Assembly (NCBI GenBank): GCA_943333505.2
Contig: CALQTN020000011.1
Span: 1 to 64,000, forward strand
Length of the DNA: 64,000 bases
From: Asaia bogorensis
Lineage (GTDB): Bacteria; Pseudomonadota; Alphaproteobacteria; Acetobacterales; Acetobacteraceae
Direction: 5' to 3'
This document shows positions 7,631 to 55,407 of this stretch, piece after piece. A program made the translations under genes and the position numbers. The first letter of the stretch is position 1. Each line of letters opens with the position of its first letter. The notes beneath the pieces were generated by a model. It was not told the DNA's origin, did no database searches, and was given only the letters and a program-made list of their open reading frames with translations.

Positions 7631-7753
7631 GTGTGTTCTTTGTTTGAAAACAAAGAAGCAAAAAAATTTCCCACTTTGGTTCCGCGTTCGCACGAACAGC
7701 GTTGCGCCATGGATAGAAAGTTTTTTTGGTTCTTTTTGTTCACAAAAAGAACA
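7628..7753. repeat. Dispersed repeat family B, copy 1, filling the carA-carB gap
   Basis: The carA stop sits in AAGTAAG at the left edge. The left hairpin is TTCTTTGTTT-GA-AAACAAAGAA (7636-7657). The right hairpin is GTTCTTTTTGT-TC-ACAAAAAGAAC (7729-7752). The two arms are roughly inverse copies of one another around a GC-rich middle (7660-7718). This is one of the two most complete copies. It separates the two subunit genes of one enzyme, so it either permits read-through or sets the subunit ratio. Confidence 0.75.
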
Positions 7754-7776
7754 CCTTGCCCAAAAGGACCCTGAAA

Positions 7777-15255: not shown

Positions 15256-15363
15256 GGAAGGTCTTCTTTGTTTGAAAAAAAAGAAGCAAAAAAACTTTCT
15301 ACTTGGGTTCCGGGGGCACACTGGCAGCATTGCTGCCGGTATCAAAAAGAACTGCTTGCCTTA
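15256..15363. repeat. Dispersed repeat family B, copy 2, inside the ABC transporter operon
   Basis: The left arm GGAAGGTCTTCTTTG and a poly-A hairpin lie at 15256-15295. The right end ATCAAAAAGAACTGCTTGCC runs into TTA at 15361-15363, which is the stop codon of the permease gene on the minus strand (read AGG TAA GGC). The central part contains GGCAGCATTGCTGCC, a near-perfect palindrome. The 135-base gap between permease and binding-protein genes is almost entirely this element. Confidence 0.65.
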
Positions 15364-18206: not shown

Positions 18207-18276
18207 CGCCAACGGCTAGGAATTGTTAAAAAGTTTTTTTGGTTCTTTTTGTTCACAAAAAAAACACGCTTGCTTA
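18207..18276. repeat. Dispersed repeat family B, copy 3 (right half)
   Basis: GCGCCAACGGCTAGG (18207-18220) matches the inner part of the copy at 43283. AAGTTTTTTTGGTTCTTTTTGTTCACAAAA follows as the right hairpin (about 18231-18260). The right end GCTTGCTTA contains the stop codon (rc 18274-18276) of a relic reading frame on the minus strand. A weak left end (GTAGGTCTTTTTG) lies just after the stop of the gene ending at 18089. Confidence 0.6.
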
Positions 18277-32579: not shown

Positions 32580-33757
32580 TATACTCCCTGCGCCGGGGCA
32601 ATTTGGGCATAGGCCCAGTCGAGCCAGGGCAATAATGCGGCGATATTGTCGGGATCGACGGTGGCGCCGGCCCAGATCCGCAAGCCGGGCGGGGCATCGC
32701 GATAGGCGCCGATGTCGTAGGCGACACCCTCCTTGTCGAGGAGCGCGGCAATTTTCTTGGCGACCGTGGCGCGATCATTCTCGTCGAGATCGAGGAACCA
32801 CGGCGCCTTGATGACAAGGCAGATCGAGGTGCAGGACCGTGTCGCCGGATCAATGGCGAGGAAATCCGCCCAGACGCTGGCGGCAACCCATTTGGCGATG
32901 TGGGCGAGGCTGGCTTCGCTGCGCCCGATCAGTGCCGGCAGGCCGCCGATGCTTTCCGCCCAACGCAGCCCATCGAGCGCGTCTTCGGCGCAAAGCAGGC
33001 TCGGGGTGTTGATGGTTTCACCCTTGAAGATGCCTTCGACCAGCTTGCCGCCCGACATCAGGCGGAAAATCTTTGGCAGCGGCCAGGGCGGGGTGTAAGA
33101 CAACAGGCGTTCGACGGCGCGCGGCGACAAAGCGAGCATGCCGTGGGCGGCTTCCCCGCCCAGTGCTTTCTGCCAGGACCAGGTGACGACATCGCATTTG
33201 TCCCATGGCAAATCCATGGCGAAAGCAGCGGAAGTTGCATCGCAGATCACCAGACCTGCACGGTCAGCGGCGATGAAATCGGCGTTCGGGAAGCGCACAC
33301 CGGATGTGGTGCCGTTCCAAGCCAGCACCAGATCATGCGCCGGATTGACCTGCGACAGATCGGGCAAGGCGCCATAGGCCGCAGTGAGGATCCGGGCATC
33401 CTTCAGCTTTAACTGCTTGACGATGTCGGAGGCCCAGGTTTCGGAAAAGCTCTCATGTGCCAGGACATCAACCGGGCGGGCACCCAGCAGCGACCACAGC
33501 GCCAGTTCAACCGCGCCAGTATCCGACGCCGGCACGATGCCGAGGCGCCAGTCAGCGGGCATGCCAAGCATATCGCGGGATCTGGTGATGACCTCGGCGA
33601 GGCGGCCCTTGGGCACTGGGGTGCGATGCGACCGGCCGAGCGCGTCGGTCGGGAGTGCCGCCAGCGAATAGCCGGGACGCTTGGCACATGGGCCAGAGGA
33701 GAAATTGGGGTTCGCGGGTCGGACAGACGGACGCGCGGCGATGTCGGCAAGTGACAT
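32579..33757 (-). CDS. serC: Phosphoserine aminotransferase
   Basis: A 392-residue PLP enzyme making phosphoserine from phosphohydroxypyruvate and glutamate. It starts [15 protein letters not shown] in the manner of the alphaproteobacterial SerC subtype. The PLP lysine is in [16 protein letters not shown], and the aspartate stacking the cofactor precedes it in [13 protein letters not shown]. It overlaps serA (TAATG type), so the two are coupled. A purine-rich site GAGGGAGAG lies just before the ATG. The leader upstream is described separately. Confidence 0.95.
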
Positions 33758-34010
33758 TGTAACTCTCCCTCACAGAAGAAATGCACTCCGGTGGGGGAGC
33801 GTGGCCCACAGCCACCTTAGCCGGACTTTTGCTGCAGTGCAACAGGACGCTTTCTGCGCCCGCTGTTGCGGATGCTGGGGGTTAAGCCCCCAGCCGAGGC
33901 GATCCGAAAACCAGCGCCGATGATCGCGGCATTCCCAAGCCGATATCGTTACATCATACCAATACTACCAACTCATCCAAGCTGCCGTCAGCGTGTAACA
34001 TCAAGCAGTC
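33758..34010 (-). other. serC leader / intergenic region with a stable hairpin
   Basis: About 250 bases between serC and the repeat beside the NIPSNAP gene. GCTGGGGG (33874-33881), loop TTAAG, CCCCCAGC (33887-33894) gives an 8-bp GC-rich stem about 115 bases before the serC start. Closer to the gene, GTGGC-TGTGG-GCCAC (read on the minus strand) can form a smaller one. I recognise no riboswitch consensus. The outer hairpin may instead end the NIPSNAP gene transcript, which reads towards it. Confidence 0.4.
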
Positions 34011-43273: not shown

Positions 43274-43282
43274 GCAAAGCAC

Positions 43283-43399
43283 GGAAGGTCTTCTTTTTGT
43301 GAACAAAAAAAGCAAAAAAACTTCATCCATTGTTGCCGTTGGCGTGGGACCGCAGAGGATTCCCTAGCCAGCGGCAACAAATCATAAAAAAACTGCTTA
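43283..43399. repeat. Dispersed repeat family B, copy 5 (near complete)
   Basis: Left end GGAAGGTCTTCTTTTTGTGAACAAAAA (from 43283, 10 bases after the parE stop) folds into a hairpin. The inner arms TGTTGCCGTTGGC and GCCAGCGGCAACA are inverse copies with one mismatch. The right end AAAAAACTGCTTA brings in TTA (43397-43399), the stop of the minus-strand binding-protein gene (AAG TAA GCA). It fills the gap between two converging genes. Confidence 0.7.
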
Positions 43400-44614
43400 C
43401 TTCATCAAATAACACCCAGCCTCAGCCGGTGTCCGCCATACCTGCTCGTGCGGCACAGTCGCCACAATTTTGTAAACGTCGTACGGCTCCTTCGATTCTG
43501 CCGGCGTCTTGACTTCGACCAGGTACATCGGCCGTAACGTGGTGCCATCGGCGCGGATCTGGACGTTCTTCATTTCGAAGCTGTTGATCGGGGTGGCCTT
43601 CATCTTCGCCATCACCTGTTCGCCTTCAACAGTGCCAGTCGCCTTCACCGCCTGCAGGTAATGGCTGACCGCGCTATAGGCGCCCGATTGCAGGAAGGTT
43701 GGCGCGCGGCCATTGAAGCGGGCCATAAATTTACGGCTCCAGGCGCGGGTTTCCGCGTCCTTGTCCCAGTAGAACGGCACAGTGAACTGCATGCCCTTCG
43801 CCGCCGGCAGGCCAATGGCGACGATGGTGTTGATGGTGGTGCCGGTCGATGCCAGGACCTGGCCCCTGCCGGTGATGTTGAACTCGGCCGCCTGCTTCAC
43901 CGCATTGGTGAAATCGGCGCCGGCATTGGCTAACGCGATAACCTTGGCGCCGCTGGCCTGGGCCTGGATCAACTGGGCAGAGTAATCGGTGGTGCCGAGC
44001 GGGTGTTTCACCGTCCCGAGCACGCGACCGCCAGCCTCCTTGATGAACTGGGTGGCGCCGGCTTCCATCGCGGCACCGAAAGCATAGTCGACGGTAATGA
44101 AATACCAGGTGTCCTTGCCCGCTGCGACCAGCGCCTTGGTCACAGCTTTCGGCGTCGCGTAGGTGTCGTATTCAAAATTGATCGACATCGGCGTGCAGGC
44201 CTTGCCGGTCAGATCGGCCGAACCGCTCCCTGCAATCAGAAATGGTTTTTTTGCCTCCGCCATCAGTGGCGCCACCCCTAGCGCAATCGGGGAGATGGAA
44301 AACGTCAGAATGGTATCGACCTTCTCGACCGCGAGCCATTGCCTTACCATCGACACCCCGACATCCGGCTTGTTCTGATCATCGCCGATCACCAGCTCAA
44401 TCGGCCGGCCAAGCACGCTGCCGCCGAAATCCTCGATCGCCATGCGGGCCGCGAGCACCGAGCCCGGACCACCATTATCGGCATACGGGCCGGACTGATC
44501 GCCGATGATGCCGATTTTGAGCGGCTGTGCGACGACCGGCGTCGCAGCCAGTCCAAGACAAATGGCGCTCGCGAGCAGACGCTGGCGCGGTGTAACGGTA
44601 AAACTGACAAACAT
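43397..44614 (-). CDS. Branched-chain amino acid-type ABC transporter substrate-binding protein
   Basis: A 405-residue Leu/Ile/Val-type periplasmic binding protein. The signal peptide ends near residue 29 (VVAQ), then PLKIGIIGDQSGPYADNGGPGSVLAARMAIEDFGG opens the first lobe as two short blocks. ITVDYAFGAAMEAGATQFI and GTTDYSAQLIQAQASGA are typical of the second lobe. No permease or ATPase genes adjoin it, so it is an orphan receptor for an importer encoded elsewhere. Aromatic or short carboxylic acids are also common ligands of this group. Confidence 0.88.
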   Translation of the reverse strand: MFVSFTVTPRQRLLASAICLGLAATPVVAQPLKIGIIGDQSGPYADNGGPGSVLAARMAIEDFGGSVLGRPIELVIGDDQNKPDVGVSMVRQWLAVEKVDTILTFSISPIALGVAPLMAEAKKPFLIAGSGSADLTGKACTPMSINFEYDTYATPKAVTKALVAAGKDTWYFITVDYAFGAAMEAGATQFIKEAGGRVLGTVKHPLGTTDYSAQLIQAQASGAKVIALANAGADFTNAVKQAAEFNITGRGQVLASTGTTINTIVAIGLPAAKGMQFTVPFYWDKDAETRAWSRKFMARFNGRAPTFLQSGAYSAVSHYLQAVKATGTVEGEQVMAKMKATPINSFEMKNVQIRADGTTLRPMYLVEVKTPAESKEPYDVYKIVATVPHEQVWRTPAEAGCYLMK

Positions 44615-44745
44615 GATCGTGTTTCCCCTGGAGCCTGTTATTTTCCCTCATCGATCATGCCATGAAGCGCCGCATCGGGCCAAATCGACGGCATGGCGCA
44701 GGGCGATTTCACTGACATGAAATTTTTCACCCCAGCCCGCAGGCT

Positions 44746-44774
44746 TTGACATCCCTGCTCTATCTGCCATCACT
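44746..44774 (+). promoter_or_regulatory. Possible promoter for the luciferase-like monooxygenase gene
   Basis: A perfect TTGACA box lies at 44746-44751, 54 bases before the ATG at 44806. The -10 position after 17 bases (ATCACT) is poor, so only the -35 box supports the call. It lies in a 191-base divergent gap shared with the binding-protein gene. Confidence 0.3.
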
Positions 44775-44805
44775 ACAGCAAGAACATGTGGCGGAGGGCC
44801 GGAAA

Positions 44806-46110
44806 ATGAAATTTGGGGTATTCTACGAATTGCAGCTTCCGCGTCCGTGGACGCAAGATTCCGAATACAATATCGTCCAGCAGGCCCTCGATCAGATCGA
44901 ACTTGCCGACAAACTCGGTTTTGATTGCGTCTGGGAGGTCGAGCATCACTTCCTTGAAGAATATTCGCATTCCTCCGCCCCCGAAGTGTTCCTCGCCGCC
45001 TGCACCCAGCGCACCAAACAAATCCGTATTGGCCACGGCATCAACCTGACGGCGCCGAAATACAACCAGCCGCAGCGCGTCGCGGAACGGGTCGCGATGC
45101 TCGATCTGCTGTCGAACGGGCGGGTCGAATGGGGCAGCGGCGAATCGGGATCGCTGATGGAAATGGATGGCTTCGGCATCGATCCCAAGGACAAGGGGGC
45201 GATGTGGCGCGAAGGCACCGAGCAGGCCGCCAACATGATGGCGATGACGCCCTATCCCGGCTTTCAGGGCGTGCATTTCTCCATGCCCGCACGCAACGTG
45301 ATCCCCAAGCCACGGCAAAACCCGCATCCGCCAATGTGGCTGGCCTGTTCGCGCCGCGACAGCATTCTGCGCGCAGCCCGCAACGGCATGGGCGCGTTGG
45401 TGTTCGGCTTTGTCACCCCCGATCAGGCCGCCGAGTGGATAAAAGAGTATTACGCGATCATCAAATCCGATGAATGCGTGCCGCTGGGCCACAGCGTGAA
45501 CGCCAATTTTGCCTGCCTCGCCGGCATGTCGGTGCACCCCGACGCCGACGAAGCCGCGCGCCGGGGCACAGATGGGTTTCGCTTCTTCGGCTATTCGCTC
45601 GCCCATTACGGCATCTTCGGCACCCATCAACCGGGTGTCACCAATGTCTGGGATCGTTTCGAGGAAGTCCGCGACCAGATGCCAGCGACACCTGGCGAAT
45701 GCGCGATCGGCACGCCGCAAGCGGTAAAAGCCAATCTCAAGGCATTTGCCGATGCCGGGGTCGACCAGATGATTTTCATCCAGCAATGCGGCAAGAACCA
45801 GCACGGCCACATCATGGAGGCGATGGAGTTGTTCGCGTCCGAGGTCATGCCCGACTTCAAGGCCGCTGAACCCGCCCGCGAAGCCGCCAAGCAGGCGGAA
45901 CTGGCGCCCTATTTCGCGGCTGCTCTGGCGCGCAAGCCGCGAATGGCGCCGCTCGAAACCGTGCCCGAAGTCATGGCGCTGGGCCGCAAACTGCAGGTTG
46001 AAACCGGGCTGGATTACTCCAACGCCGGCGGGGTCTATTCCGACAAGACCCGCGGTGGCTCCATTCCGGTGCCAATGTCCGATCCAGCGCTCCTGAAAGC
46101 CAAAGGATAA
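44806..46110 (+). CDS. Luciferase-like (bacterial luciferase family) flavin-dependent monooxygenase
   Basis: A 434-residue TIM-barrel oxidoreductase using F420 or FMNH2. MKFGVFYELQLPRPW and VWEVEHHFLEEYSHSSAPEV match the barrel start and its conserved EHH segment, followed by IRIGHGINLTAPKYNQP and VEWGSGESGS. The start at 44806 begins at the family motif and is preceded by GGAGGG. A 20-residue upstream extension is unlikely. The C-terminal about 80 residues extend beyond the usual barrel. It is followed after 6 bases by a CMD-family gene, forming an operon. Substrate unknown. Confidence 0.88.
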   Translation: MKFGVFYELQLPRPWTQDSEYNIVQQALDQIELADKLGFDCVWEVEHHFLEEYSHSSAPEVFLAACTQRTKQIRIGHGINLTAPKYNQPQRVAERVAMLDLLSNGRVEWGSGESGSLMEMDGFGIDPKDKGAMWREGTEQAANMMAMTPYPGFQGVHFSMPARNVIPKPRQNPHPPMWLACSRRDSILRAARNGMGALVFGFVTPDQAAEWIKEYYAIIKSDECVPLGHSVNANFACLAGMSVHPDADEAARRGTDGFRFFGYSLAHYGIFGTHQPGVTNVWDRFEEVRDQMPATPGECAIGTPQAVKANLKAFADAGVDQMIFIQQCGKNQHGHIMEAMELFASEVMPDFKAAEPAREAAKQAELAPYFAAALARKPRMAPLETVPEVMALGRKLQVETGLDYSNAGGVYSDKTRGGSIPVPMSDPALLKAKG

Positions 46111-46116
46111 CCCGCT

Positions 46117-46875
46117 ATGGAACTCACCGAAGCCCAACAGAAATTCAAGGAAGACTATATCAAGGCGCGCGGCTACTGGGTCGCGTTCAATGATGGCCTG
46201 CTGAAATACAGCCAGGATTTTCTAGAAACCTATCTCCGCTACGCCGCTCTGCCAGCGCGAACCGGCCCGCTGAGCGAGCGCATGTGCGAACTGATCTATG
46301 TCGCGGTCGATGCGTCGTCGACCCATTTATTCGCCGAAGGCTTGAAGGTCCATGTCCGCCGCGCGCTCGCCATGGGTGCCAGCGTGCATGACGTGATCGA
46401 GACCTTGCAGCTTGCCACCGCCCAGGGCCTTGAAGGCGTCACCATGGGCGTCGAAATCCTGGTCGAGGAATTGCAGGCGGCCGGTCAGGATACCGGGTTC
46501 CTCGGTGGCGCACTGACCGCCGAGCAGGAAACACTGCGCGTCGCCTATACCGCGCGCTTCGGAGACTGGCCGGCATTCGCAGACCAACTGCTGCGCCTGT
46601 CGCCGGCTTATTTCGAGGTGATGACCGAGCTTCTCGCCGCGCCGTCAGTGACCGGCGCTTTGTCCTACGCCGAACAATGCCTGATCAATGTGGCACTCAA
46701 TGCCTGCCTCACCCATCAGAATCCGGCCGGCACCAGGTTGCATATCGCCCGCGCCATTCGTGCGGGTGCGACCAAGGAGGAAATCCTCGAGGCGATCCAG
46801 TTGACCGCCCATCTCGGCGTTCATGCCTGTGTGCTGGGTGTGCCGATGCTGGTCAGCGCCGCTGAGCGAAAATGA
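46117..46875 (+). CDS. Carboxymuconolactone decarboxylase-family protein, two-domain
   Basis: A 252-residue protein with two tandem CMD-like helical domains (about residues 50-120 and 175-245). The first reads ELIYVAVDASSTHLFAEGLKVHVRRALAMGAS, given here only as a pattern of Glu, Ser and His; the second has LNACLTHQNPAGTRLHIARA. Neither has the Cys-x-x-Cys of AhpD peroxidases, so redox activity is unlikely and a lyase or binding role is more plausible. It is coupled to the luciferase-like gene before it. Six bases separate its stop from that of the next, opposite gene. Confidence 0.85.
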   Translation: MELTEAQQKFKEDYIKARGYWVAFNDGLLKYSQDFLETYLRYAALPARTGPLSERMCELIYVAVDASSTHLFAEGLKVHVRRALAMGASVHDVIETLQLATAQGLEGVTMGVEILVEELQAAGQDTGFLGGALTAEQETLRVAYTARFGDWPAFADQLLRLSPAYFEVMTELLAAPSVTGALSYAEQCLINVALNACLTHQNPAGTRLHIARAIRAGATKEEILEAIQLTAHLGVHACVLGVPMLVSAAERK

Positions 46876-46881
46876 TGTCGC

Positions 46882-47448
46882 TTATCTCGGTTCTCCCAAC
46901 GACAGCATCAGGCGGTTCGCCCAGTTAAAAAAAGCCGCGCCATGGATCGCGTCGGCAATCGCCAGATCATCCAACCCGACCGCGCGCAAGGCGGCGATAT
47001 CGGCGCCCCCGAAGCCGGTCGGGGTTTCGGTCAGCGCCACCGAGGCTGCCACCACCGCGTTCCAGCGCGGATCGAGATCGACCTCCACGCCATCAGCCAG
47101 CATCCGGTCCACATCGGCGCCTCGCTTGGAGAAATGGCTGGCGAAACGGGCATGGACCGATGCGCAATAGATGCAGCCATTCAGCCGCGAGGTCGCCGCT
47201 GCCGCCAGTTCGCGCTCAGCGCGCGGCAAGCCGGCATTTGGGTTGTAGAAGATGTCCTTGTCGGTACGGGTGCGGGCACCAAGAATATCCGGATCGCGCG
47301 CCAGAAGCATGAAATAGGCCGATTTGGCACGGGCCGGATCGACCAGACCATCCCAATGGCGGGGGGTAAGCTCTTCGGCCGGCAAGGGCGGCAACCAGGG
47401 CAGCCAGTCAAGTTGGGCCTGGGTGAAAATTGTCGGGTGGGTGGACAT
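46882..47448 (-). CDS. AhpD-like alkylhydroperoxidase domain protein (Avi_7169-like)
   Basis: A 188-residue protein with the complete AhpD active-site pattern C92-x-x-C95-x-x-x-H99 (GCIYCASVHARF) preceded by ERELAAAATSRLN. Such proteins reduce peroxides with electrons from a thioredoxin- or lipoamide-type partner. From memory it resembles the group named after Agrobacterium Avi_7169. It overlaps the upstream CMD gene (TGATG), so it is the last gene of an operon with that gene, a luciferase-like monooxygenase and a complete ABC importer. I set the start at 47448; the longer frame runs into the neighbour. Confidence 0.85.
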   Translation of the reverse strand: MSTHPTIFTQAQLDWLPWLPPLPAEELTPRHWDGLVDPARAKSAYFMLLARDPDILGARTRTDKDIFYNPNAGLPRAERELAAAATSRLNGCIYCASVHARFASHFSKRGADVDRMLADGVEVDLDPRWNAVVAASVALTETPTGFGGADIAALRAVGLDDLAIADAIHGAAFFNWANRLMLSLGEPR

Positions 47449-48023
47449 CAGCGGGCCTCCGCCAGGGCGCGTAGCCCGATGATGACGCGGATCTGAAAGG
47501 TCAGAAACGCCACGAGTTGCGACAAGGTGACAATGCCGGTAGCCGACCAACCCGCCGCTTCAAGCTTGCGCAATGCGGCGGCCGAGGCGTCGCGCGGGTG
47601 AAACACCAGCATGTGGGTGTGGGCGAGCGCCGCCGCGAGGCGTGGCCCAACATCGGTGATCGCGGTGAAGACCGGGCCGTCTTTGTCTTCCGAGCTTAAC
47701 GGGCCGGCTGGAAAATGCCCGTACGGGCCGGCCGTGGCGCCGCGCACGATTTCGGCGTTGAGCATCAGGCGCAGATCCGGTGCGGCCGCCAGGCCTTCGC
47801 GATAAAATGCCGCGATAGCCGGCTGGCGATGAAGGCCGGCCACGAAAACCGCAACGGCGTGGCGTTCCACCAGGCTGATATCGACCGGCTCAGCGGGATG
47901 AAACAATGCGAGATAGCTCTTCTGGGCATTATCGCGCGCCTGCATCCGCTCGGCACGCAGCCTGTCGAGATGGGACCCCGGGGTAATGCCAACCAGCAGG
48001 TCAACGATATCTGGATGGCTCAT
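47448..48023 (-). CDS. CMD-domain protein (Avi_7170-like)
   Basis: A 191-residue all-helical protein with weak similarity to the CMD fold (VERHAVAVFVAGLHRQPAIAAFY near residue 55, then ALAHTHMLVFHPRDASAAAL). It lacks the Cys-x-x-Cys pair found in its downstream neighbour, so the two probably form a functional pair in which only the neighbour is redox active. It overlaps the luciferase-like gene upstream by 4 bases and the AhpD-like gene downstream by one. From memory it corresponds to the Avi_7170-type family; the biochemical role is unknown to me. Confidence 0.75.
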   Translation of the reverse strand: MSHPDIVDLLVGITPGSHLDRLRAERMQARDNAQKSYLALFHPAEPVDISLVERHAVAVFVAGLHRQPAIAAFYREGLAAAPDLRLMLNAEIVRGATAGPYGHFPAGPLSSEDKDGPVFTAITDVGPRLAAALAHTHMLVFHPRDASAAALRKLEAAGWSATGIVTLSQLVAFLTFQIRVIIGLRALAEAR

Positions 48024-49045
48024 TGGGCTGCCTCCAACTGGCGGAGCGGGGTTCGATGCCAGCCCAAGGCGGGGGCGACCTCGGTTGCGATGAGCTCGAG
48101 CGAGCGCAGGATCAGTTCATGCGGTGGGTCGATGGAATGGACCTGGAAGACCAGATCGGTGACCCGATCGAGCGTGCGGTCGCCGCGTAAGGCGGTCAGC
48201 ACCTCGTCAACGGTACCGATATAGCTGTCGGTCGAGGCGATCAATTCATCGAGGGTTTCAGCGCTTAGGCCACGGCCCAGGCTCTTCATCCGTGCCTCGT
48301 GTCGGCGTAGGCCTGCATCGGCGTAGCGCCGGGCTTCCGCGCGGCTGTCGGCGACGAACAAAGTGCGCGAGCCGGTGATGCGCGGGGTACGCCCGGCTGG
48401 CAGGTTGGCGAGATAGGCATCGATGATCGGGTCTTGCATATCGGTCAGGCTCGCGCCGGGGTGGTCGGCCGGGCGTGGCTGGGTGCGCGACAGCATCAGC
48501 CCGTCGCCATCCATCCCGGCCCGTCTGCCGCCCTCGACCGAGAACGTCGCCTGCCAGATACGATCGAGCAGTTGCGGGCCGGCGGGGTAAAGCTGCGCGG
48601 CTCCCCCCAGGCTATCACCGCGCAAGGCGGCCCGCATCGCAATCATGTTCTGCACATAGACCGGGGTGCGACCGGCATTGTCCAATCCGAAGGGTGGGAA
48701 AGCCTGTGGATTGCCACCTGAGCCGACCCCGAGTTCAAGCCGGCCGCCCGACAGCAGATCGAACACCGCCGCGTCTTCCGCCACCCGCAACGGGTTTTCG
48801 AGCGCCAGCGTGATGATCCCAGTGCCGAGCCGGATGGTCGAGGTGTGGGCGGCAATATGGCTGAGCAGCACGAAGGGCGACGGCAGCCCGCCTTCATCCT
48901 CGAAAAAATGGTGCTGCGCGACCCAAGCGCTGTCGAAGCCGAGCCGTTCGGCATGGACAAATTGTTCGGTCGCCAGACGGTAACGGCTGGCGGCGTCGGT
49001 CTGATCAAGCAGACGGGAAAAGAAGCCCAATCGTTTCGCGGTCAT
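48020..49045 (-). CDS. Luciferase-like FMN-dependent monooxygenase (KPN_01858-like)
   Basis: A 341-residue TIM-barrel enzyme. It begins KRLGFFSRLLDQTDAASRYR, has AWVAQHHFFEDEGGLPSPF (the His pair of the family), IRLGTGIITLALENPLRVAEDAA and LELGVGSGGNPQAFPPFG. The start at 49045 has AGGAGGG 11 bases upstream; the frame continues but without similarity. It lies between the ABC-transporter genes and the two CMD/AhpD genes. From memory this set (binding protein, permeases, ATPases, luciferase-like enzyme, CMD, AhpD) recurs as a cluster in Klebsiella and Agrobacterium. A role in oxidising an imported sulfur or peptide-like compound is a guess. Confidence 0.86.
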   Translation of the reverse strand: MTAKRLGFFSRLLDQTDAASRYRLATEQFVHAERLGFDSAWVAQHHFFEDEGGLPSPFVLLSHIAAHTSTIRLGTGIITLALENPLRVAEDAAVFDLLSGGRLELGVGSGGNPQAFPPFGLDNAGRTPVYVQNMIAMRAALRGDSLGGAAQLYPAGPQLLDRIWQATFSVEGGRRAGMDGDGLMLSRTQPRPADHPGASLTDMQDPIIDAYLANLPAGRTPRITGSRTLFVADSRAEARRYADAGLRRHEARMKSLGRGLSAETLDELIASTDSYIGTVDEVLTALRGDRTLDRVTDLVFQVHSIDPPHELILRSLELIATEVAPALGWHRTPLRQLEAAQ

Positions 49046-49107
49046 ACGTGAAGACCCTCCTGAGGGCTGAGCATAGGCCGGCCCGCGCCTGGGGGGAATG
49101 GCGTCGA

Positions 49108-50052
49108 TCAGCCGCCGACCGGCAGATGGCACGCTGTCGCATGCGGGGCGCCGACCAGGACCGGGGCGGTTACCCGACAGACATCCATCACATAAGGGCA
49201 GCGCGGGTGGAAACGGCAGCCGGCGGGCGGGTTCATCGCGCTGGCAATTTCGCCCATCGCGGCCGCCTCGCTCAGCACATGATCGGGGTCAGGCAGCGGC
49301 ACTGCGGCCAGCAGGGCTTTGGTATAAGGATGGCGTGGGGCGGCGAACACCTGCTCGGTCGGGCCGGCCTCGGACACGCAGCCGAGATAGATCACCCCGA
49401 CATCGCTGCTGAAATGTTCGACCAGCGCGAGGTCATGGGCAATAATCAGATAGGTCAACCCGAACTCGGTCTGGATATCGGCAAGCAGATTGAGGATCTG
49501 GGCACGGATCGAGACATCGAGCGCCGATACCGGTTCATCGAGCACCATCAACCGGGGCCGCAGCGCAAGCGCACGCGCAATGGCAATGCGCTGGCGCTGG
49601 CCGCCGGAAAACTCATGCGGGTAAAGCCGCGCCGCACTGGCCGGCATGCCAACGACATCAAGCACTTCGGCGACGATTTTGTCGAGTTCGGCGCGGGATT
49701 TCTTTTCATGCGCCAGCACCGGCTCTGCGATAATCGTGCCGACCCGCAGGCGCGGATTGAGCGAGGAATAGGGGTCCTGGAACACTGCCATCACCTGGCG
49801 GCGATAGGCCCGGAGAGACGCCCGATCCATCGCGGCAATATCCCGGCCCTCAAAGCGGATCGTACCCGATGTTGGCTGTTCCAATTGCAGGATCATCTTG
49901 GCGATCGTGGTCTTGCCACAGCCCGACTCGCCAACCAGCGCCATCGTGGTGCGCGGTTCGACCCGCAGCGACACACGCTCCACCGCCCGCACCAGCCCAT
50001 GCTTGGTGGGATAATGCTTGGTGATATCAGTAAGCTCCAGCATGGCGTCCAT
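49108..50052 (-). CDS. ABC transporter ATPase, DppF/OppF type
   Basis: A 314-residue ATPase. Walker A is GESGCGKTT, the Q-loop is VFQDPYSSLNPR, the signature is FSGGQRQRIAIARAL, Walker B is LMVLDEPVSALD, and the switch His is in IIAHDLALV. The C-terminal CRFHPRCPYVMDVC block with clustered Cys is the oligopeptide-transporter extension (four Cys, possibly iron-sulfur or zinc). The start at 50052 overlaps the DppD-type stop (TGATG). Two further in-frame Met codons nearby are alternatives. It is the fifth gene of the minus-strand importer operon. Confidence 0.93.
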   Translation of the reverse strand: MDAMLELTDITKHYPTKHGLVRAVERVSLRVEPRTTMALVGESGCGKTTIAKMILQLEQPTSGTIRFEGRDIAAMDRASLRAYRRQVMAVFQDPYSSLNPRLRVGTIIAEPVLAHEKKSRAELDKIVAEVLDVVGMPASAARLYPHEFSGGQRQRIAIARALALRPRLMVLDEPVSALDVSIRAQILNLLADIQTEFGLTYLIIAHDLALVEHFSSDVGVIYLGCVSEAGPTEQVFAAPRHPYTKALLAAVPLPDPDHVLSEAAAMGEIASAMNPPAGCRFHPRCPYVMDVCRVTAPVLVGAPHATACHLPVGG

Positions 50053-51011
50053 CAGACCAGCTTCCAGCAGGCGGCGCTGTGGCCATCCGACAGCGTCACA
50101 TTCGGCGGCGCCTCGGCGCATTTATCCATCCGCATCGGACAGCGCGCGGCAAAACGGCAGCCGCTGGGCGGATCGATCAGGCTCGGCGGCTGGCCGGCAA
50201 TCGCGGTAAGCCTGCCGCGCTTAGCGCCAAGGCGCGGGATCGCGGCCAGCAAGGCCTGTGTATAAGGGTGCGAAGGGGTGCGGTAGATCGCCCGCACCGG
50301 CCCGGTTTCAATGATCTGCCCGGCATACATCACCGCGATGCGCCGGCACAGGCTCGCCGCCACGCCGAGATCATGGGTAATCAGGATGATGCCGGCGCCG
50401 GTATCGGCCTGGATATTGCGCAACAGGTTGATGATCTGCACCTGGATGGTGACGTCGAGCGCAGTGGTCGGCTCATCGGCGACCAACAGCCGCGGGGTGC
50501 AGCCGATCGCCATGGCGGCAACAATGCGCTGGCGCTGGCCACCGGAAAACTGGTGGGGATAATCGCCAAGCCGATCCGCCGGCGACGGCAGCCGCACCCT
50601 TTGCAAGACATCGATAACGGCCGAGCGTAAGGCGGCGCCGCGCGCGATATCGTGGTTGCGCAAGGGCGATCCAACCTGATCGCCGATTGAAAACACCGGG
50701 TTCAGCGACGTCATCGGGTCCTGCATGATCATCGCGATCTTGCGGCCGCGAATGTCGCGCGCCAATGCCGCTTCGGAAAGTGTGGTCAGTTCCTGGCCAT
50801 CGAGCTTGATCGAGCCGCTGACGATCCGCCCTGAGCCTTTCGGCAACAACCGCAGCAACGACAATCCGGTAAGGGTTTTGCCCGACCCGGACTCGCCGAC
50901 CAGCCCCAGGGTTTCACCCTCGGCGACATCGAGGCTCACGCCATCGACCGCGCGCAGCACACCGCGTTTGAGGTGGAGATGGGTTTGCAGGTTCCTGACT
51001 GACAGTAGCAT
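50052..51011 (-). CDS. ABC transporter ATPase, DppD/OppD type
   Basis: A 319-residue ATPase with Walker A GESGSGKT, Q-loop MIMQDPMTSLNP, signature FSGGQRQRIVAAMAI, Walker B LLVADEPTTALD and H-loop ITHDLGVAA. The C-terminal CRFAARCPMRMDKC extension matches its DppF-type partner and marks the pair as an oligopeptide/nickel-type set. It overlaps the permease gene upstream by TGATG. This pair could also power the ATPase-less permeases at 15361-17168. Confidence 0.93.
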   Translation of the reverse strand: MLLSVRNLQTHLHLKRGVLRAVDGVSLDVAEGETLGLVGESGSGKTLTGLSLLRLLPKGSGRIVSGSIKLDGQELTTLSEAALARDIRGRKIAMIMQDPMTSLNPVFSIGDQVGSPLRNHDIARGAALRSAVIDVLQRVRLPSPADRLGDYPHQFSGGQRQRIVAAMAIGCTPRLLVADEPTTALDVTIQVQIINLLRNIQADTGAGIILITHDLGVAASLCRRIAVMYAGQIIETGPVRAIYRTPSHPYTQALLAAIPRLGAKRGRLTAIAGQPPSLIDPPSGCRFAARCPMRMDKCAEAPPNVTLSDGHSAACWKLV

Positions 51012-51850
51012 CAGAGTTGCCGCAACTGCGGGTCAAGCCGGTCTCGCAACCAGTCCCCAAAGATATTCGATGACAGACAGGTCAACATGATCGCAATCCC
51101 CGGCATGGTGATCGCCCACCAGGCGTTGGTGATGTATTGCCGCGCGTCCGACAGCATCAGGCCCCAGGAAATATCAGGCTGCTGAATGCCGAGCCCAAGG
51201 AAGGACAAGGATGCCTCGAACAGGATCACCTGCCCGACCTGCAAAGTTGCCAGCACCACCAGCGTATTGAAGATATTGGGCAGCAAATGGCGGACAAATA
51301 TCGTCGGTGTGCCGACGCCGGCGACCCGTGCGAAGGCGATGTAGTCGCGGCCTTTCAATGCCATGATCTCGCCGCGGATGATACGCGCGTACCAGGCCCA
51401 GTAAGTCAGAACAATCACCACCACCACGGTGGACAGCCCCGGTTCCAAGGCCGCCGCCAGGATCAGTGCCAGCGCGATCGATGGGACGGATTGCTGGATT
51501 TCGATAAAACGCATCAGCAGCGTATCAACCCAGCCGCCGAAATACCCGGCGATCATGCCGATAACCGCGCCGATGCCCCCGGAAAACAGGATGGCGTAAA
51601 AGGCCACGATCACCGAAACCCGCGATCCCGCCATGATCCGACTAAGAATATCGCGCCCGAGATTATCGGCACCCAGTGGGTTGGTCATGTCCCCACCTTC
51701 GAGCCAGAACGGTGGTTTGAAGGCCGCGCCGAGATCAAGCTCATTGGCATCGAACGGCAGCATTGCCTCGCCCCCGGCCGCGCAGATCCCAACTGCGGCG
51801 ATCACCAGAAGCGGCAGCCACGGCACGCCGCGAAACATGCTAGCGTCCAT
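51011..51850 (-). CDS. ABC transporter permease, DppC type
   Basis: A 279-residue permease with NPLGADNLGRDILSRIMAGSR near residue 60, the DppC hallmark, and the EAA loop AFARVAGVGTPTIFVRHLLPNI. It should have about six membrane helices. I chose ATG 51850 (MDASMFRG), which overlaps the DppB-type stop by 11 bases and has AAGGA 7 bases upstream. ATG 51838 would avoid the overlap but has a weaker site. The first helix region ends with AAGGEAMLPFDANELDL, facing the periplasm. Confidence 0.9.
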   Translation of the reverse strand: MDASMFRGVPWLPLLVIAAVGICAAGGEAMLPFDANELDLGAAFKPPFWLEGGDMTNPLGADNLGRDILSRIMAGSRVSVIVAFYAILFSGGIGAVIGMIAGYFGGWVDTLLMRFIEIQQSVPSIALALILAAALEPGLSTVVVVIVLTYWAWYARIIRGEIMALKGRDYIAFARVAGVGTPTIFVRHLLPNIFNTLVVLATLQVGQVILFEASLSFLGLGIQQPDISWGLMLSDARQYITNAWWAITMPGIAIMLTCLSSNIFGDWLRDRLDPQLRQL

Positions 51851-52760
51851 TGCGGATCCTTGGATCGACGAGGCCATAGGACAGGTCGACCAGCAAATTT
51901 GACATGACGAACAGGATCGAGGTGAACAGCACCCCGGCCTGCACCACCGGAAAATCGCGCGCGAACACCGCCTCGACCACGGTGCGACCGACACCCGGCC
52001 AAGCGAAAATCGTCTCCACCACGAAGGCCCCGCCCAACATCGCAGCGAAATAAACCCCAAGCATGGTCAGCAGCGGTACCGCTGCATTGCGCAGCGCGTA
52101 TTTCCAGATGATCAGGCGTTCTGGCGTGCCAAGCGCGCGCGACAGGCGGATATGGTCGCTGTCCAGCACATCGAGCATCGCCGATCGCACGATCCGGGTT
52201 TGTGCCGCCACCGGATACCAGCCGAGCGAAATCGCCGGCAGAACCATCTGGCTCAGACTGCCATGCCCAAATGCCGGCAACCAGTTGAGCTTGATGGCAA
52301 AGACCAGGATCAGCAGCAACCCGACCCAGAAGGCCGGCATCGCCTGCCCGAGCATGGCGAAGACCCGACCGATCCGATCAATCCAGCCGCCGCGATGCAC
52401 CGCCGACATCACCCCGACCGGCACTGCCACCGCCACGCTGAACAGCAGGCCGCACATGGCAAGTTCAATTGTTGCCGGCAGGCGGTCCATGATCAGCTTG
52501 ATCGCCGGCATTTTCCAGCGATAGGAATTGCCGAAATCACCCACCAGCGCGTTCTGGGCGAAGATCAGATATTGCACCCAGAGCGGCCGGTCGAGGCCGA
52601 GAGTGCGCCTTGTTTCCTCGATCATGCTGATAGGTGCGTCATTGGGCAGCAGCATCAGAATCGGATCGCCCGACAGGCGCGAGATCACGAAAATAATCAT
52701 GCTCGCGCCGATGATGCTGATCACGCCCTGCATCAGCCGGCGGATAAAGAACCCGGACAT
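51840..52760 (-). CDS. ABC transporter permease, DppB type
   Basis: A 306-residue permease starting MSGFFIRRLMQGVISIIGAS, with SRLSGDPILMLLPNDAP (DppB-type periplasmic segment), six helices and the EAA loop RLSRALGTPERLIIWKYALRNAAVP. The open frame extends 96 bases upstream without similarity and into the binding-protein gene, so the start at 52760 is used. It follows the binding-protein gene by 13 bases and precedes the DppC-type gene with overlap. Confidence 0.92.
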   Translation of the reverse strand: MSGFFIRRLMQGVISIIGASMIIFVISRLSGDPILMLLPNDAPISMIEETRRTLGLDRPLWVQYLIFAQNALVGDFGNSYRWKMPAIKLIMDRLPATIELAMCGLLFSVAVAVPVGVMSAVHRGGWIDRIGRVFAMLGQAMPAFWVGLLLILVFAIKLNWLPAFGHGSLSQMVLPAISLGWYPVAAQTRIVRSAMLDVLDSDHIRLSRALGTPERLIIWKYALRNAAVPLLTMLGVYFAAMLGGAFVVETIFAWPGVGRTVVEAVFARDFPVVQAGVLFTSILFVMSNLLVDLSYGLVDPRIRNGR

Positions 52761-52773
52761 AGTCGTCGCTTCG

Positions 52774-54339
52774 CTATTGCTTGAGACCGATCTCCTGCAT
52801 GCTGCGCCAGAACGCAATCGGCCACGGCTTGAACGCGACCTTGTCGCGCCAGGCAAAGGTCACCAACGGGCGGTAGGTCGACAGGCCACCGGCAACCCGA
52901 TCGCGTTTCAGGCGGGCGATCTTTTTGATCAAATCCGCGCGTTGCCCGACCTCCATGGTGCGTTTCAATTCCTCAACCATCGCGTCGATCTCGGGGTCGG
53001 CATAGAGCGAGGTTGCACCCCAGCCTTTGCCGGGGACGTAGCTGTGCAGATGTCCGGCCCAGGCAGTCCCAGGGTCGCCTGGCAGACCGTGGCCCCACAT
53101 GTTGCTGTAAAGCCCGTCAATATGGCCCTGGCGTTCGCGGCGTCCGAAGGTGATCCAGGTGCCGTATTCCATGCCCTGCACCTTGCAGCGAATGCCGACA
53201 GCGGTGGCATAGGCGAAATAGGCCTCGCCGACCTCCTTCTGATAGGGCTCGCGCGGGCTGGTCAGATTGTAGCAGGGCGTGTCAAAGCCGTTGGGGTAGC
53301 CCGCCTCGCGCAGCAATTCACGCGCCCGTTTCGGATCGTACGGGTAAGGCTTCAGGTCGGGATCATAGCCCAGTTCGCCAATGCCGACCTCGACATAGCG
53401 CTGCCCCTGGCCGAACAGCACGCTTTTGATGATCGCATCGACGTTGATCGCATGGGCGAGCGCCTGACGAACCCGGACATCGTAGAATTTGGAGTCAGCG
53501 GTGACCGAGTCGGTCGAGATATACATGTTATTCGGCGCGACCAGGCTGGTGGTGACCACGCCTGGCAGCTTCTTAAATTCCTCGATCATCGCCGGCGGAA
53601 CCGCGTCGATCCAGTCCACCGCGCCGGTCTTGAAGGCGGCCACCCGGGTCAGATCTTCCGGGATCACCTTGATGGTCAGGTTCTTGACCCCCGGGCGGTT
53701 CTGGGCGTTCCAGTAATTATCATACGCCTCGAAGCGGATTTCCTCCTTTACAGCACGTGACACGAAGCGCCACGGCCCGGTGCCAACCGGCGCGCGCTCG
53801 AAGGCTTCGTCACCAACCCGTTCCATGTAGCGCTTGGGCATCGCATACAAGGTCAGATCGCCCGAGATGTATGAGCCATCGCCTTCCTTGAAACGGATGC
53901 GGAAATGATGTGGATCGATGATTTCGAACGCCTCGACGGCCGCCTGGAGATGGGTCCAGATCGAGATTTTCTTGTCGCTCTGGCGGCGGAAGGAATATTC
54001 GAAATCCTCTGCCGTCAGCGGATCACCGTTATGGAAGGTTACGTTTTTGCGGAGGTGAATATCCAGATAGGGCTTGCCGCCTTCCTGCTTGACCTCCCAG
54101 CTTTCCGCCAGCCAGTTGACCTGCTTGAGCGAGGGATCGGTCCGGGTCAGCTGTTCGAACATCTGGCCGATATAATACTGGTCCACCCCGGCGGCGGACC
54201 TTGTCGGGTCGAGGACGGTAGCCTCGGCGCCGAAAGCCACGGTAAGGCTTCCCGTGGCAGGTTTGGGGGTCTGAGCATGGGTTGCAAGTGGGAGGGCAAG
54301 GATTGCGACGGTGGCCGCTTGTTGGAGCCATCTGGACAT
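52774..54339 (-). CDS. ABC transporter substrate-binding protein (KPN_01854-like)
   Basis: A 521-residue family-5 periplasmic binding protein. A signal peptide runs to about residue 22 (LALPLATHA before QTPK). The core shows LRKNVTFHNGDPLTAEDFEYSFRR as a split pattern, VGTGPWRFVSRAVKEEIRFE and DVRVRQALAHAINVDAII. It heads the operon binding protein-DppB-DppC-DppD-DppF-luciferase-like-CMD-AhpD. From memory this binding protein type is named after KPN_01854 and its ligand is unknown. It is divergent from a TauD-type dioxygenase gene across a 156-base gap with no clear boxes. Confidence 0.9.
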   Translation of the reverse strand: MSRWLQQAATVAILALPLATHAQTPKPATGSLTVAFGAEATVLDPTRSAAGVDQYYIGQMFEQLTRTDPSLKQVNWLAESWEVKQEGGKPYLDIHLRKNVTFHNGDPLTAEDFEYSFRRQSDKKISIWTHLQAAVEAFEIIDPHHFRIRFKEGDGSYISGDLTLYAMPKRYMERVGDEAFERAPVGTGPWRFVSRAVKEEIRFEAYDNYWNAQNRPGVKNLTIKVIPEDLTRVAAFKTGAVDWIDAVPPAMIEEFKKLPGVVTTSLVAPNNMYISTDSVTADSKFYDVRVRQALAHAINVDAIIKSVLFGQGQRYVEVGIGELGYDPDLKPYPYDPKRARELLREAGYPNGFDTPCYNLTSPREPYQKEVGEAYFAYATAVGIRCKVQGMEYGTWITFGRRERQGHIDGLYSNMWGHGLPGDPGTAWAGHLHSYVPGKGWGATSLYADPEIDAMVEELKRTMEVGQRADLIKKIARLKRDRVAGGLSTYRPLVTFAWRDKVAFKPWPIAFWRSMQEIGLKQ

Positions 54340-54495
54340 GGTTGTCTCTTCTCCGCACGGTCGTCTTTACGTAGCACGCGACACGTTTAGGCTATGCCAC
54401 CACTTCAATGCGGGACCGTCAAGGACATTTTGCAAATATCTAGGTTCGGCCAACAGTACCTCTGTCGAACAGCATCTTACATTGCGAGGCCCATC

Positions 54496-55407
54496 ATGAC
54501 CCTGGCCATCAAACCGCTCGCCGATACGTTCGCCGGCGAGGTCTCCGGCCTCGACTGCGCCCACCCACTAACCCCGGACGATGTCGCCGCATTCGAGGCT
54601 GGGATGGACCGGTTCGCGGTTCTGGTGATCCGCGATCAGCGTCTCAGCGATGCTGAACAGCTCGCCTTCACCCTGCATTTTGGCGAGATCGAAAAATCCG
54701 GCCACGGCAGTGCCAAGGGGCCGATCCATTTCCGCACCGTGCAACAGGCGCGCGATCTTGGCGCCGGGATCGGGGATTTCTCCAATGTCGACGGCAAAGG
54801 CGCGCCGCTGGCCGCGGATAGCCGGGCCTATCTGTTCAAGCTTGCCGACCGGCTATGGCATTCCGACAGTTCGTTCCGTGCGACGCCGGCGAAATACTCG
54901 CTGCTGTCCGGGCGCGCCATCCCGTCCTGGGGTGGCAACACCGAATTCGCCGACATGCGTGCGGCCTATGACGCGCTCGACGACCGCACCCGCGCGATGG
55001 CCGAAGATCTGGTGTGTGGCCATTCGCAAATGTATTCGCGGGAAAAAATCGGCTTCTCCGAAATGAGTGAGGCCGAACGCCTCGCCTTCACCCCGGTGCG
55101 CCAGCGCCTGGTCCGCACCCATCCAGTGACCGGCCGCAAGTCGCTGTTCCTGTCATCGCATGCCGGTACGATTGAGGGCTGGTCGCTGCCCGAGGCGCGG
55201 ATGTTCCTGCACGAACTGACCGAGTTCGCGACCGGACCACGTTTCGTTTATGCGCATCGATGGCGGCTCAACGACCTTGTTATCTGGGATAATCGCGCGA
55301 CCATGCATCGCGGCCGGCGCTTCGATCCGGCCGAGGCCCGCGATGTCCGCCAGACCCGATTGGCGGGAAGCGCGCCGACAATCGAACAGGCGATCATCAC
55401 GCCCTAG
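54496..55407 (+). CDS. TauD/TfdA-family 2-oxoglutarate-dependent dioxygenase
   Basis: A 303-residue Fe(II)/2-oxoglutarate oxygenase. The facial triad is H122-x-D124 (LWHSDSSF) and H271 (ATMHRGRRFD), with the nearby Arg that binds 2-oxoglutarate. The beginning IKPLADTFAGEVSGLD resembles 2,4-dichlorophenoxyacetate or taurine dioxygenase types. GAGG lies 6 bases before the ATG at 54496. Next to the importer with luciferase-like enzyme, a role in releasing sulfite from a sulfonate or opening an ether bond fits, but the substrate is unproven. Its TAG stop shares CTAG with the TAG of the opposite gene. Confidence 0.9.
   Translation: MTLAIKPLADTFAGEVSGLDCAHPLTPDDVAAFEAGMDRFAVLVIRDQRLSDAEQLAFTLHFGEIEKSGHGSAKGPIHFRTVQQARDLGAGIGDFSNVDGKGAPLAADSRAYLFKLADRLWHSDSSFRATPAKYSLLSGRAIPSWGGNTEFADMRAAYDALDDRTRAMAEDLVCGHSQMYSREKIGFSEMSEAERLAFTPVRQRLVRTHPVTGRKSLFLSSHAGTIEGWSLPEARMFLHELTEFATGPRFVYAHRWRLNDLVIWDNRATMHRGRRFDPAEARDVRQTRLAGSAPTIEQAIITP

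Follow-up and report, generated by a model that had tools for sequence, protein, structure and literature searches.

Gene content of the locus

We analyzed a 64,000-nucleotide stretch of Asaia bogorensis DNA (assembly GCA_943333505.2, contig CALQTN020000011.1, positions 1 to 64,000; here called the window), in which two gene modules that encode luciferase-like monooxygenases (LLMs) and proteins of the carboxymuconolactone decarboxylase (CMD) type meet tail to tail. The host genome is a draft of 4.52 Mb in 151 contigs. On the plus strand, an LLM of 434 amino acids (aa) (44806..46110; PF00296, 138 bits) is followed by a two-domain, PcaC-like CMD protein of 252 aa (46117..46875; PF02627, 56.7 bits against a cut-off of 23, matched in two stretches). 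On the minus strand, an FMN-dependent LLM of 341 aa (48020..49045) is followed by a CMD protein of 191 aa (47448..48023) and an AhpD-like protein of 188 aa (46882..47448). These five genes and their arrangement had been described in an earlier sequence-only reading, and they proved to be real and correctly placed. Base reading likewise bore out its spacing: the plus stop codon extends to 46875 and its minus-strand counterpart starts at 46882, leaving a junction of 6 bases (46876..46881). The cysteine patterns are also as described; the plus CMD protein has four Cys residues and no CxxC, the minus CMD protein has no Cys, and the AhpD-like protein carries a full C-x-x-C-x-x-x-H.

The minus-strand genes are translationally coupled, with overlaps of ATGA at the LLM stop and CMD start and TGATG at the CMD stop and AhpD start; for AhpD we preferred the ATG at 47448 over the upstream TTG given in the list of open reading frames (ORFs). 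The LLM gene begins 62 bases past an ABC importer on the same strand, and importer and trio lie in one operon. The first gene of the importer encodes an SBP_bac_5 substrate-binding protein (52774..54339; PF00496, 234.7 bits), followed by two dipeptide/nickel-type permeases with uncertain starts (51011..52763; Opp2C 264 and Opp2B 325 bits, below cut-offs) and two ATPases of the OppD/OppF type (49108..51011; NCBIfam matches below cut-offs).

The earlier reading took the two modules for a single LLM/CMD system present twice, in which the CMD protein is a working part of the monooxygenase. Its observations were confirmed and its interpretation was supported in part. On balance we favor a different account, in which two distinct flavin-monooxygenase modules with only broad family names in common adjoin at a breakpoint left by rearrangement, the minus trio acting in organosulfur scavenging and the plus pair in the catabolism of CoA thioesters.

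The minus-strand module belongs to a catalogued trio with a constant CMD-AhpD pair

All three minus-strand proteins score above the curated cut-offs of an NCBIfam trio: TIGR04027 (LLM_KPN_01858; 515.1 bits, cut-off 412.9), TIGR04029 (CMD_Avi_7170; 214.6 bits, cut-off 100.75) and TIGR04030 (perox_Avi_7169; 268.4 bits, cut-off 233.15). The set of three was already on record, and its gene order is that of A. vitis S4, whose locus bears these annotations. The importer differs from those at the A. vitis, Sinorhizobium and Pantoea loci in having two separate ATPases and a binding protein of another type; TIGR04028 was not among the six families matched by the window binding protein (52777-54339) at E 1e-20. 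Beside the trio of a congener (G516), the ABC ATPases are 94 to 97% and the permeases 95 to 97% identical to those in the window, and the importer's binding protein gives only a short match. A search of the available literature collection found nothing that names Avi_7169, any of TIGR04027 to TIGR04030, or "CMD domain protein."

In a survey of 289 genomes of the class for the three families, TIGR04029 was above cut-off in four, and in all four the trio was complete and in the same order. TIGR04027 was above cut-off in five; the fifth genome (G256) had neither a TIGR04029 nor a TIGR04030 partner at E 1e-10. That genome, of ~2.0 Mb and from the same family, encodes its TIGR04027 LLM at L056 8859-9905, and no CMD, AhpD or importer match was found in the surrounding 19.9 kb. 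Three further genomes (G015, G080 and G195) encode a below-cut-off TIGR04029 protein directly before AhpD, without a TIGR04027 LLM.

We then compared 34 loci selected for holding a TIGR04029-type CMD: the window, 6 from the class survey, 17 from 188 plasmid records and 10 from genomes of the family. Four of them, the window included, belong to one genus and six to another. A match to the AhpD profile lies just downstream of the CMD gene in 34/34 loci (weakly in L079, at 35.5 bits), but a TIGR04027-type LLM lies within 300 bases upstream in only 26, so the constant element is CMD plus AhpD. The C-x-x-C-x-x-x-H motif is present in the AhpD of 32 loci; L135 stops at a contig edge and L079 lacks the motif. 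In the window protein the motif is intact as E-x(n)-CIYCASVH, and the motif is kept in all 22 aligned AhpD rows. None of the 34 CMD proteins has a CxxC, and 28 have no Cys at all, the other 6 having one to three. In five loci, four on enterobacterial plasmids and one on a Variovorax plasmid (L070, L076, L077, L078 and L082), CMD and AhpD form a single ORF, which is annotated as one coding sequence in all four records that carry annotation. When E. coli genomes were searched at the DNA level with the fused gene of Pantoea, one plasmid record alone matched, over 29% of the query. Among E. coli proteins, YciW has AhpD-type domains and a sulfur link through CysB.

The AhpD-like protein shares CxxCxxxH and a sequence match over the core with AhpD-like peroxidase-related proteins (PDB 6k40, 3c1l and 2oyo, and weakly 1gu9); it differs from known AhpD-like proteins in being paired with a CMD protein that lacks a Cys pair. 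That partner has no Pfam match, and its alignment against AhpD in hhalign gave E 0.0007 at a probability of 26.5%. The AhpD profile also picks the CMD part of L070, L075, L076 and L077, at 20 to 28 bits.

These data bear on the proposal, made for both modules, that the monooxygenase has the CMD-type protein as an auxiliary, which clears a peroxide by-product or recycles flavin. In close relatives each CMD is conserved beside its own LLM (the trio in 4/4, the plus pair in 7/7), and this part of the proposal is supported; the intact Cys pair of AhpD in the minus module and the fact that LLMs can leak peroxide are also in its favor. Service to the LLM as such is not supported: CMD and AhpD occur in 8 of the 34 loci without a TIGR04027 LLM directly before them, including S. 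meliloti, where the pair stands behind an FAD/NADP oxidoreductase, and the LLM of G256 occurs without either. Of these proteins, AhpD is the only one for which peroxide or disulfide reduction is plausible. Together with the plus-strand evidence given below, these results lead us to regard the auxiliary role as unlikely. We favor instead a pairing in which the Cys-less CMD would be an obligate partner subunit of AhpD, present as a single chain with it in some bacteria, and not a partner of the monooxygenase as such.

Possible substrates of the trio

We propose, with moderate support, that the trio takes part in organosulfur scavenging. The dipeptide-type importer would bring in a small organic compound, most likely one bearing sulfur; the TIGR04027 monooxygenase, with reduced flavin and O2, would oxygenate this compound and break a bond; and the AhpD Cys pair could reduce a disulfide, persulfide or peroxide arising en route. 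The gene content, order and overlaps, the motif, the constancy of CMD with AhpD in the loci examined and the facultative LLM are observed directly, and from these we infer the chemistry, the sulfur substrate and a CMD-AhpD hetero-complex.

Neighboring genes of sulfur type hint at this function. In A. vitis S4 the neighbors include tauA, ABC genes and a 2OG-Fe oxygenase gene, together with two genes that score below cut-off, for an SsuD-like LLM and an SfnB-like acyl-CoA dehydrogenase. In Variovorax they include a sulfurtransferase and a regulator of the CysB family. The stretch with CMD and AhpD in Variovorax sp. PBL-E5 (L074 5950-6828) is adjacent to genes for a family 2A encapsulin and its cysteine desulfurase cargo; rhodanese-like proteins and a serine acetyltransferase are encoded at the same locus, with no LLM within 4 kb. 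TauD-type genes occur in L058 and in the window, where a TauD-type dioxygenase gene, a possible sulfur link, is divergent from the minus operon (54394..55407, plus strand; PF02668, 188 bits; taurine dioxygenase model below cut-off).

Several observations weigh against our proposal for the trio. Clear sulfur genes were found in only 3 of 13 annotated plasmid loci. In the genus with six trio loci, none of the nine neighbors scanned (in L130, L133 and L136) was a sulfur gene; these include a mannosyltransferase-like gene, LysE, a short-chain dehydrogenase/reductase (SDR), an FAA hydrolase and a dehydratase, among others. The CMD fold of the Cys-less protein is unproven, with an hhalign probability of 26.5% and a poor single-sequence AlphaFold model (mean pLDDT 42.6). 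Finally, the only studied enzyme of the TIGR04027 group that we found, PCX02514 of Klebsiella, is reported to cut poly(acrylic acid) with NADPH, not with FMN, and very slowly, at a kcat of 0.00214 per s (PMC11354265).

This enzyme raises the alternative that the minus operon acts on a peptide-like or polymeric carbon compound and not on a sulfur source. The importer is of dipeptide type, and amidohydrolase or M20-type genes lie near some trios. The window LLM aligns over nearly its full length with PCX02514 of Klebsiella sp. PCX (PDB 8k74; E 2.1e-111), which places it by sequence in the same LLM group as that poly(acrylic acid) enzyme, and by eye on the alignment four of the five proposed active-site residues are kept, His253 being Met in the window. 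Dipeptide-type importers are not known to carry polymers. The low kcat was obtained on an artificial polymer, and the assays were made on the LLM, partner proteins being unnamed in the available text (PMC11354265). We consider this alternative doubtful, though it deserves to be kept in mind, and retain organosulfur scavenging as the preferred function of the trio.

The plus-strand pair resembles part of an ordinary catabolic pathway

The plus-strand module differs from the trio in both of its proteins. No NCBIfam LLM model was above cut-off for the plus LLM among the best 25 of 28 matches, the best reaching 89 against 166.95 bits; its nearest solved chain is 7bip_A (1.3e-22). The CMD protein is of the PcaC-type didomain form, not an AhpD, and the claim that one LLM/CMD system is repeated here is not supported. 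It matches 2q0t_A, a putative gamma-carboxymuconolactone decarboxylase, at 5.6e-43 and has two CMD domains as in that structure, no CxxC, and the domain-1 His residues kept. E58, T69, H70 and H79 of domain 1 are kept in all 12 aligned rows (window included); in domain 2, one or both His residues are lost in some of the 12. A structure model built from five sequences was poor (mean pLDDT 47.2). The match to PcaC itself is weak, below the cut-off of TIGR02425 (26.2 against 155.7 bits), and the setting also differs, being an LLM pair with CoA-thioester genes near it in relatives and not a protocatechuate operon.

Among 338 genomes of the Acetobacteraceae family, the plus LLM was found at ≥80% identity in seven, and in all seven a CMD match lies 8 to 16 bases behind it; in G604 the CMD gene is split over two contigs. 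Three of these loci are identical to contigs of surveyed genomes (L033 = G480:C5, L034 = G560:C2 and L035 = G323:C50) and were each counted once; L036, L037 and L038/L039 correspond by match position to G499:C462, G531:C276 and G604:C230/C169 and were not recounted. The nearest relatives of the plus CMD come from metagenome-assembled genomes labeled Acetobacteraceae, Rhodospirillales, Alphaproteobacteria or Asaia. In L034, L035 and L038 the pair is followed by a pair of acyl-CoA dehydrogenase genes. The acyl-CoA dehydrogenases of the window itself, at 55 to 58 kb, were considered as part of the plus module and dropped, being only 33 to 36% identical to those in L034/L035.

More distant relatives of the plus CMD, at 48 to 55% identity, were found in nine genomes. 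In none of the nine regions does an LLM stand directly beside the CMD gene, which counts, along with the missing CxxC and the PcaC-like character of the protein, against its serving the LLM as such. The gene before it encoded an SDR in the three of nine loci that were scanned. A clear acyl-CoA dehydrogenase match was present in six of the nine and a partial one at the stretch end in two more.

An LLM at ~61% identity occurs near a divergent didomain CMD (38 to 40% identical to that of the window) in four genomes, and an esterase gene lies directly behind it in both of those scanned (L105 and L106), a combination that would fit Baeyer-Villiger chemistry.

The plus pair thus has the look of a segment of some common catabolic route. 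We propose that the LLM and the didomain CMD belong to a CoA-thioester pathway in which the LLM would oxygenate a probably cyclic intermediate, the CMD would act on its product by acid-base chemistry at a C-C bond or lactone, and the result would pass on to acyl-CoA dehydrogenases and hydratases. The conserved pairing, the conserved His and Glu residues and the neighbors in relatives were observed; the substrate and the reaction are our suggestion from them. Two findings from the nine distant loci speak against this assignment. One locus (L109) has no acyl-CoA dehydrogenase match, and in five an LLM of another subfamily lies 1.4 to 5.1 kb from the CMD gene. These neighbors, which count in favor of the auxiliary role, raise the possibility of a looser link between LLMs and CMDs of the plus type.

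The junction coincides with a breakpoint

In blastn comparisons, homology with one congener (G480, locus L033) runs from window position 44740 to 46868, and homology with another (G516, locus L132) from 46883 to 52899; in a further genome (G437, L131) it starts at 46883 and breaks off at 49416 with the end of that contig. With similarity to one congener lost after 46868 and similarity to another setting in at 46883, the 6-base junction marks a breakpoint where two blocks meet. On the far side of the plus pair, and divergent from it, lies a gene for a periplasmic binding protein (Peripla_BP_6; 43397..44614, minus strand; PF13458, 341 bits) that has DNA homology in L034 and L035. In G480 (L033 6312-6593) only a 94-aa remnant of this gene, with 84% identity, is left beside a different importer cassette, so rearrangement has affected both sides of the plus-pair locus.

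Given that just 6 bases separate the stop codons, the tail-to-tail arrangement might be meaningful, as a unit under selection in which the two modules share a terminator or are subject to antisense control. This is not supported: the arrangement was seen in no relative examined, and congener homology ends and starts at the junction. Each of the six other genomes with the plus pair does contain a TIGR04029 match (in G531 as two partial pieces below cut-off), but always on another contig, these genomes being drafts. We therefore consider a selected unit highly improbable; the two modules appear to have met by chance when the genome was rearranged.

Generic adjacency of LLM and CMD genes

The host genome contains 37 LLM genes (from 38 matches, of which two are counted as fragments of a single gene), five PF02627 genes and one TIGR04029 gene. 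By chance, ~0.15 CMD genes would be expected within 1 kb of an LLM; two LLMs were observed beside CMD genes, both in one place. The remaining 35 LLM genes are on contigs other than those of the other three PF02627 genes.

A survey of LLM/CMD adjacency, proposed with the original description, covered 57 genomes of the class. Among the matches listed, at least five CMD genes (after merging) had an LLM within 1 kb, where 0.87 would be expected; with the window and the trio of G066 left out, at least three did. For this count, two CMD rows and three LLM rows were added from other searches, close CMD matches were merged (which fused the window's two PF02627 genes), and the expectation was taken from genome size. 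Generic adjacency outside the known cases is thus weak. In genome G067 (L083 1863-3259), an LLM of a different kind has a CMD protein ≤15 bases behind it. A S. aureus paper and a Gordonia paper had, in the parts available, no bearing on LLM-CMD pairing.

Other features of the window

With its 37 LLM genes in 4.5 Mb, the host exceeds the majority of the 57 listed genomes of the class; G027, G060, G066 and G067 have at least 32. A serC leader (RF00517) above the gathering score lies at 33759-33811, just upstream of a gene at 32582-33757 that has a gene for phosphoglycerate dehydrogenase behind it. A dispersed repeat, short and rich in A/T, with a core of ~40 bases occurs in the window at 43281-43346, 7718-7757, 15256-15297 and 18231-18261, elsewhere in the host genome (L051 and L052) and at loci of relatives (L033, L129, L132, L133 and L136); no Rfam family covers it.

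Implications

The phrase "LLM next to CMD" describes two or more situations that are unrelated to each other, and the constant unit of the catalogued trio is CMD plus AhpD, not LLM plus CMD. We tentatively hypothesize, as a possibility and not as the probable case, that CMD and AhpD form an obligate two-subunit redox module, made of a catalytic protein and its degenerate paralogue and fused on enterobacterial plasmids and one from Variovorax, which would serve various organosulfur flavin oxygenases by passing on a sulfur or peroxide intermediate, with the LLM as its commonest client. The locus as a whole looks like a known kind of gene set beside an apparently ordinary catabolic pair, and the pairing of CMD with AhpD seems to be the part worth following. 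TIGR04029, at present a hypothetical equivalog named by its domain alone, becomes testable as a subunit of AhpD, and the trio as a system for using sulfur sources.

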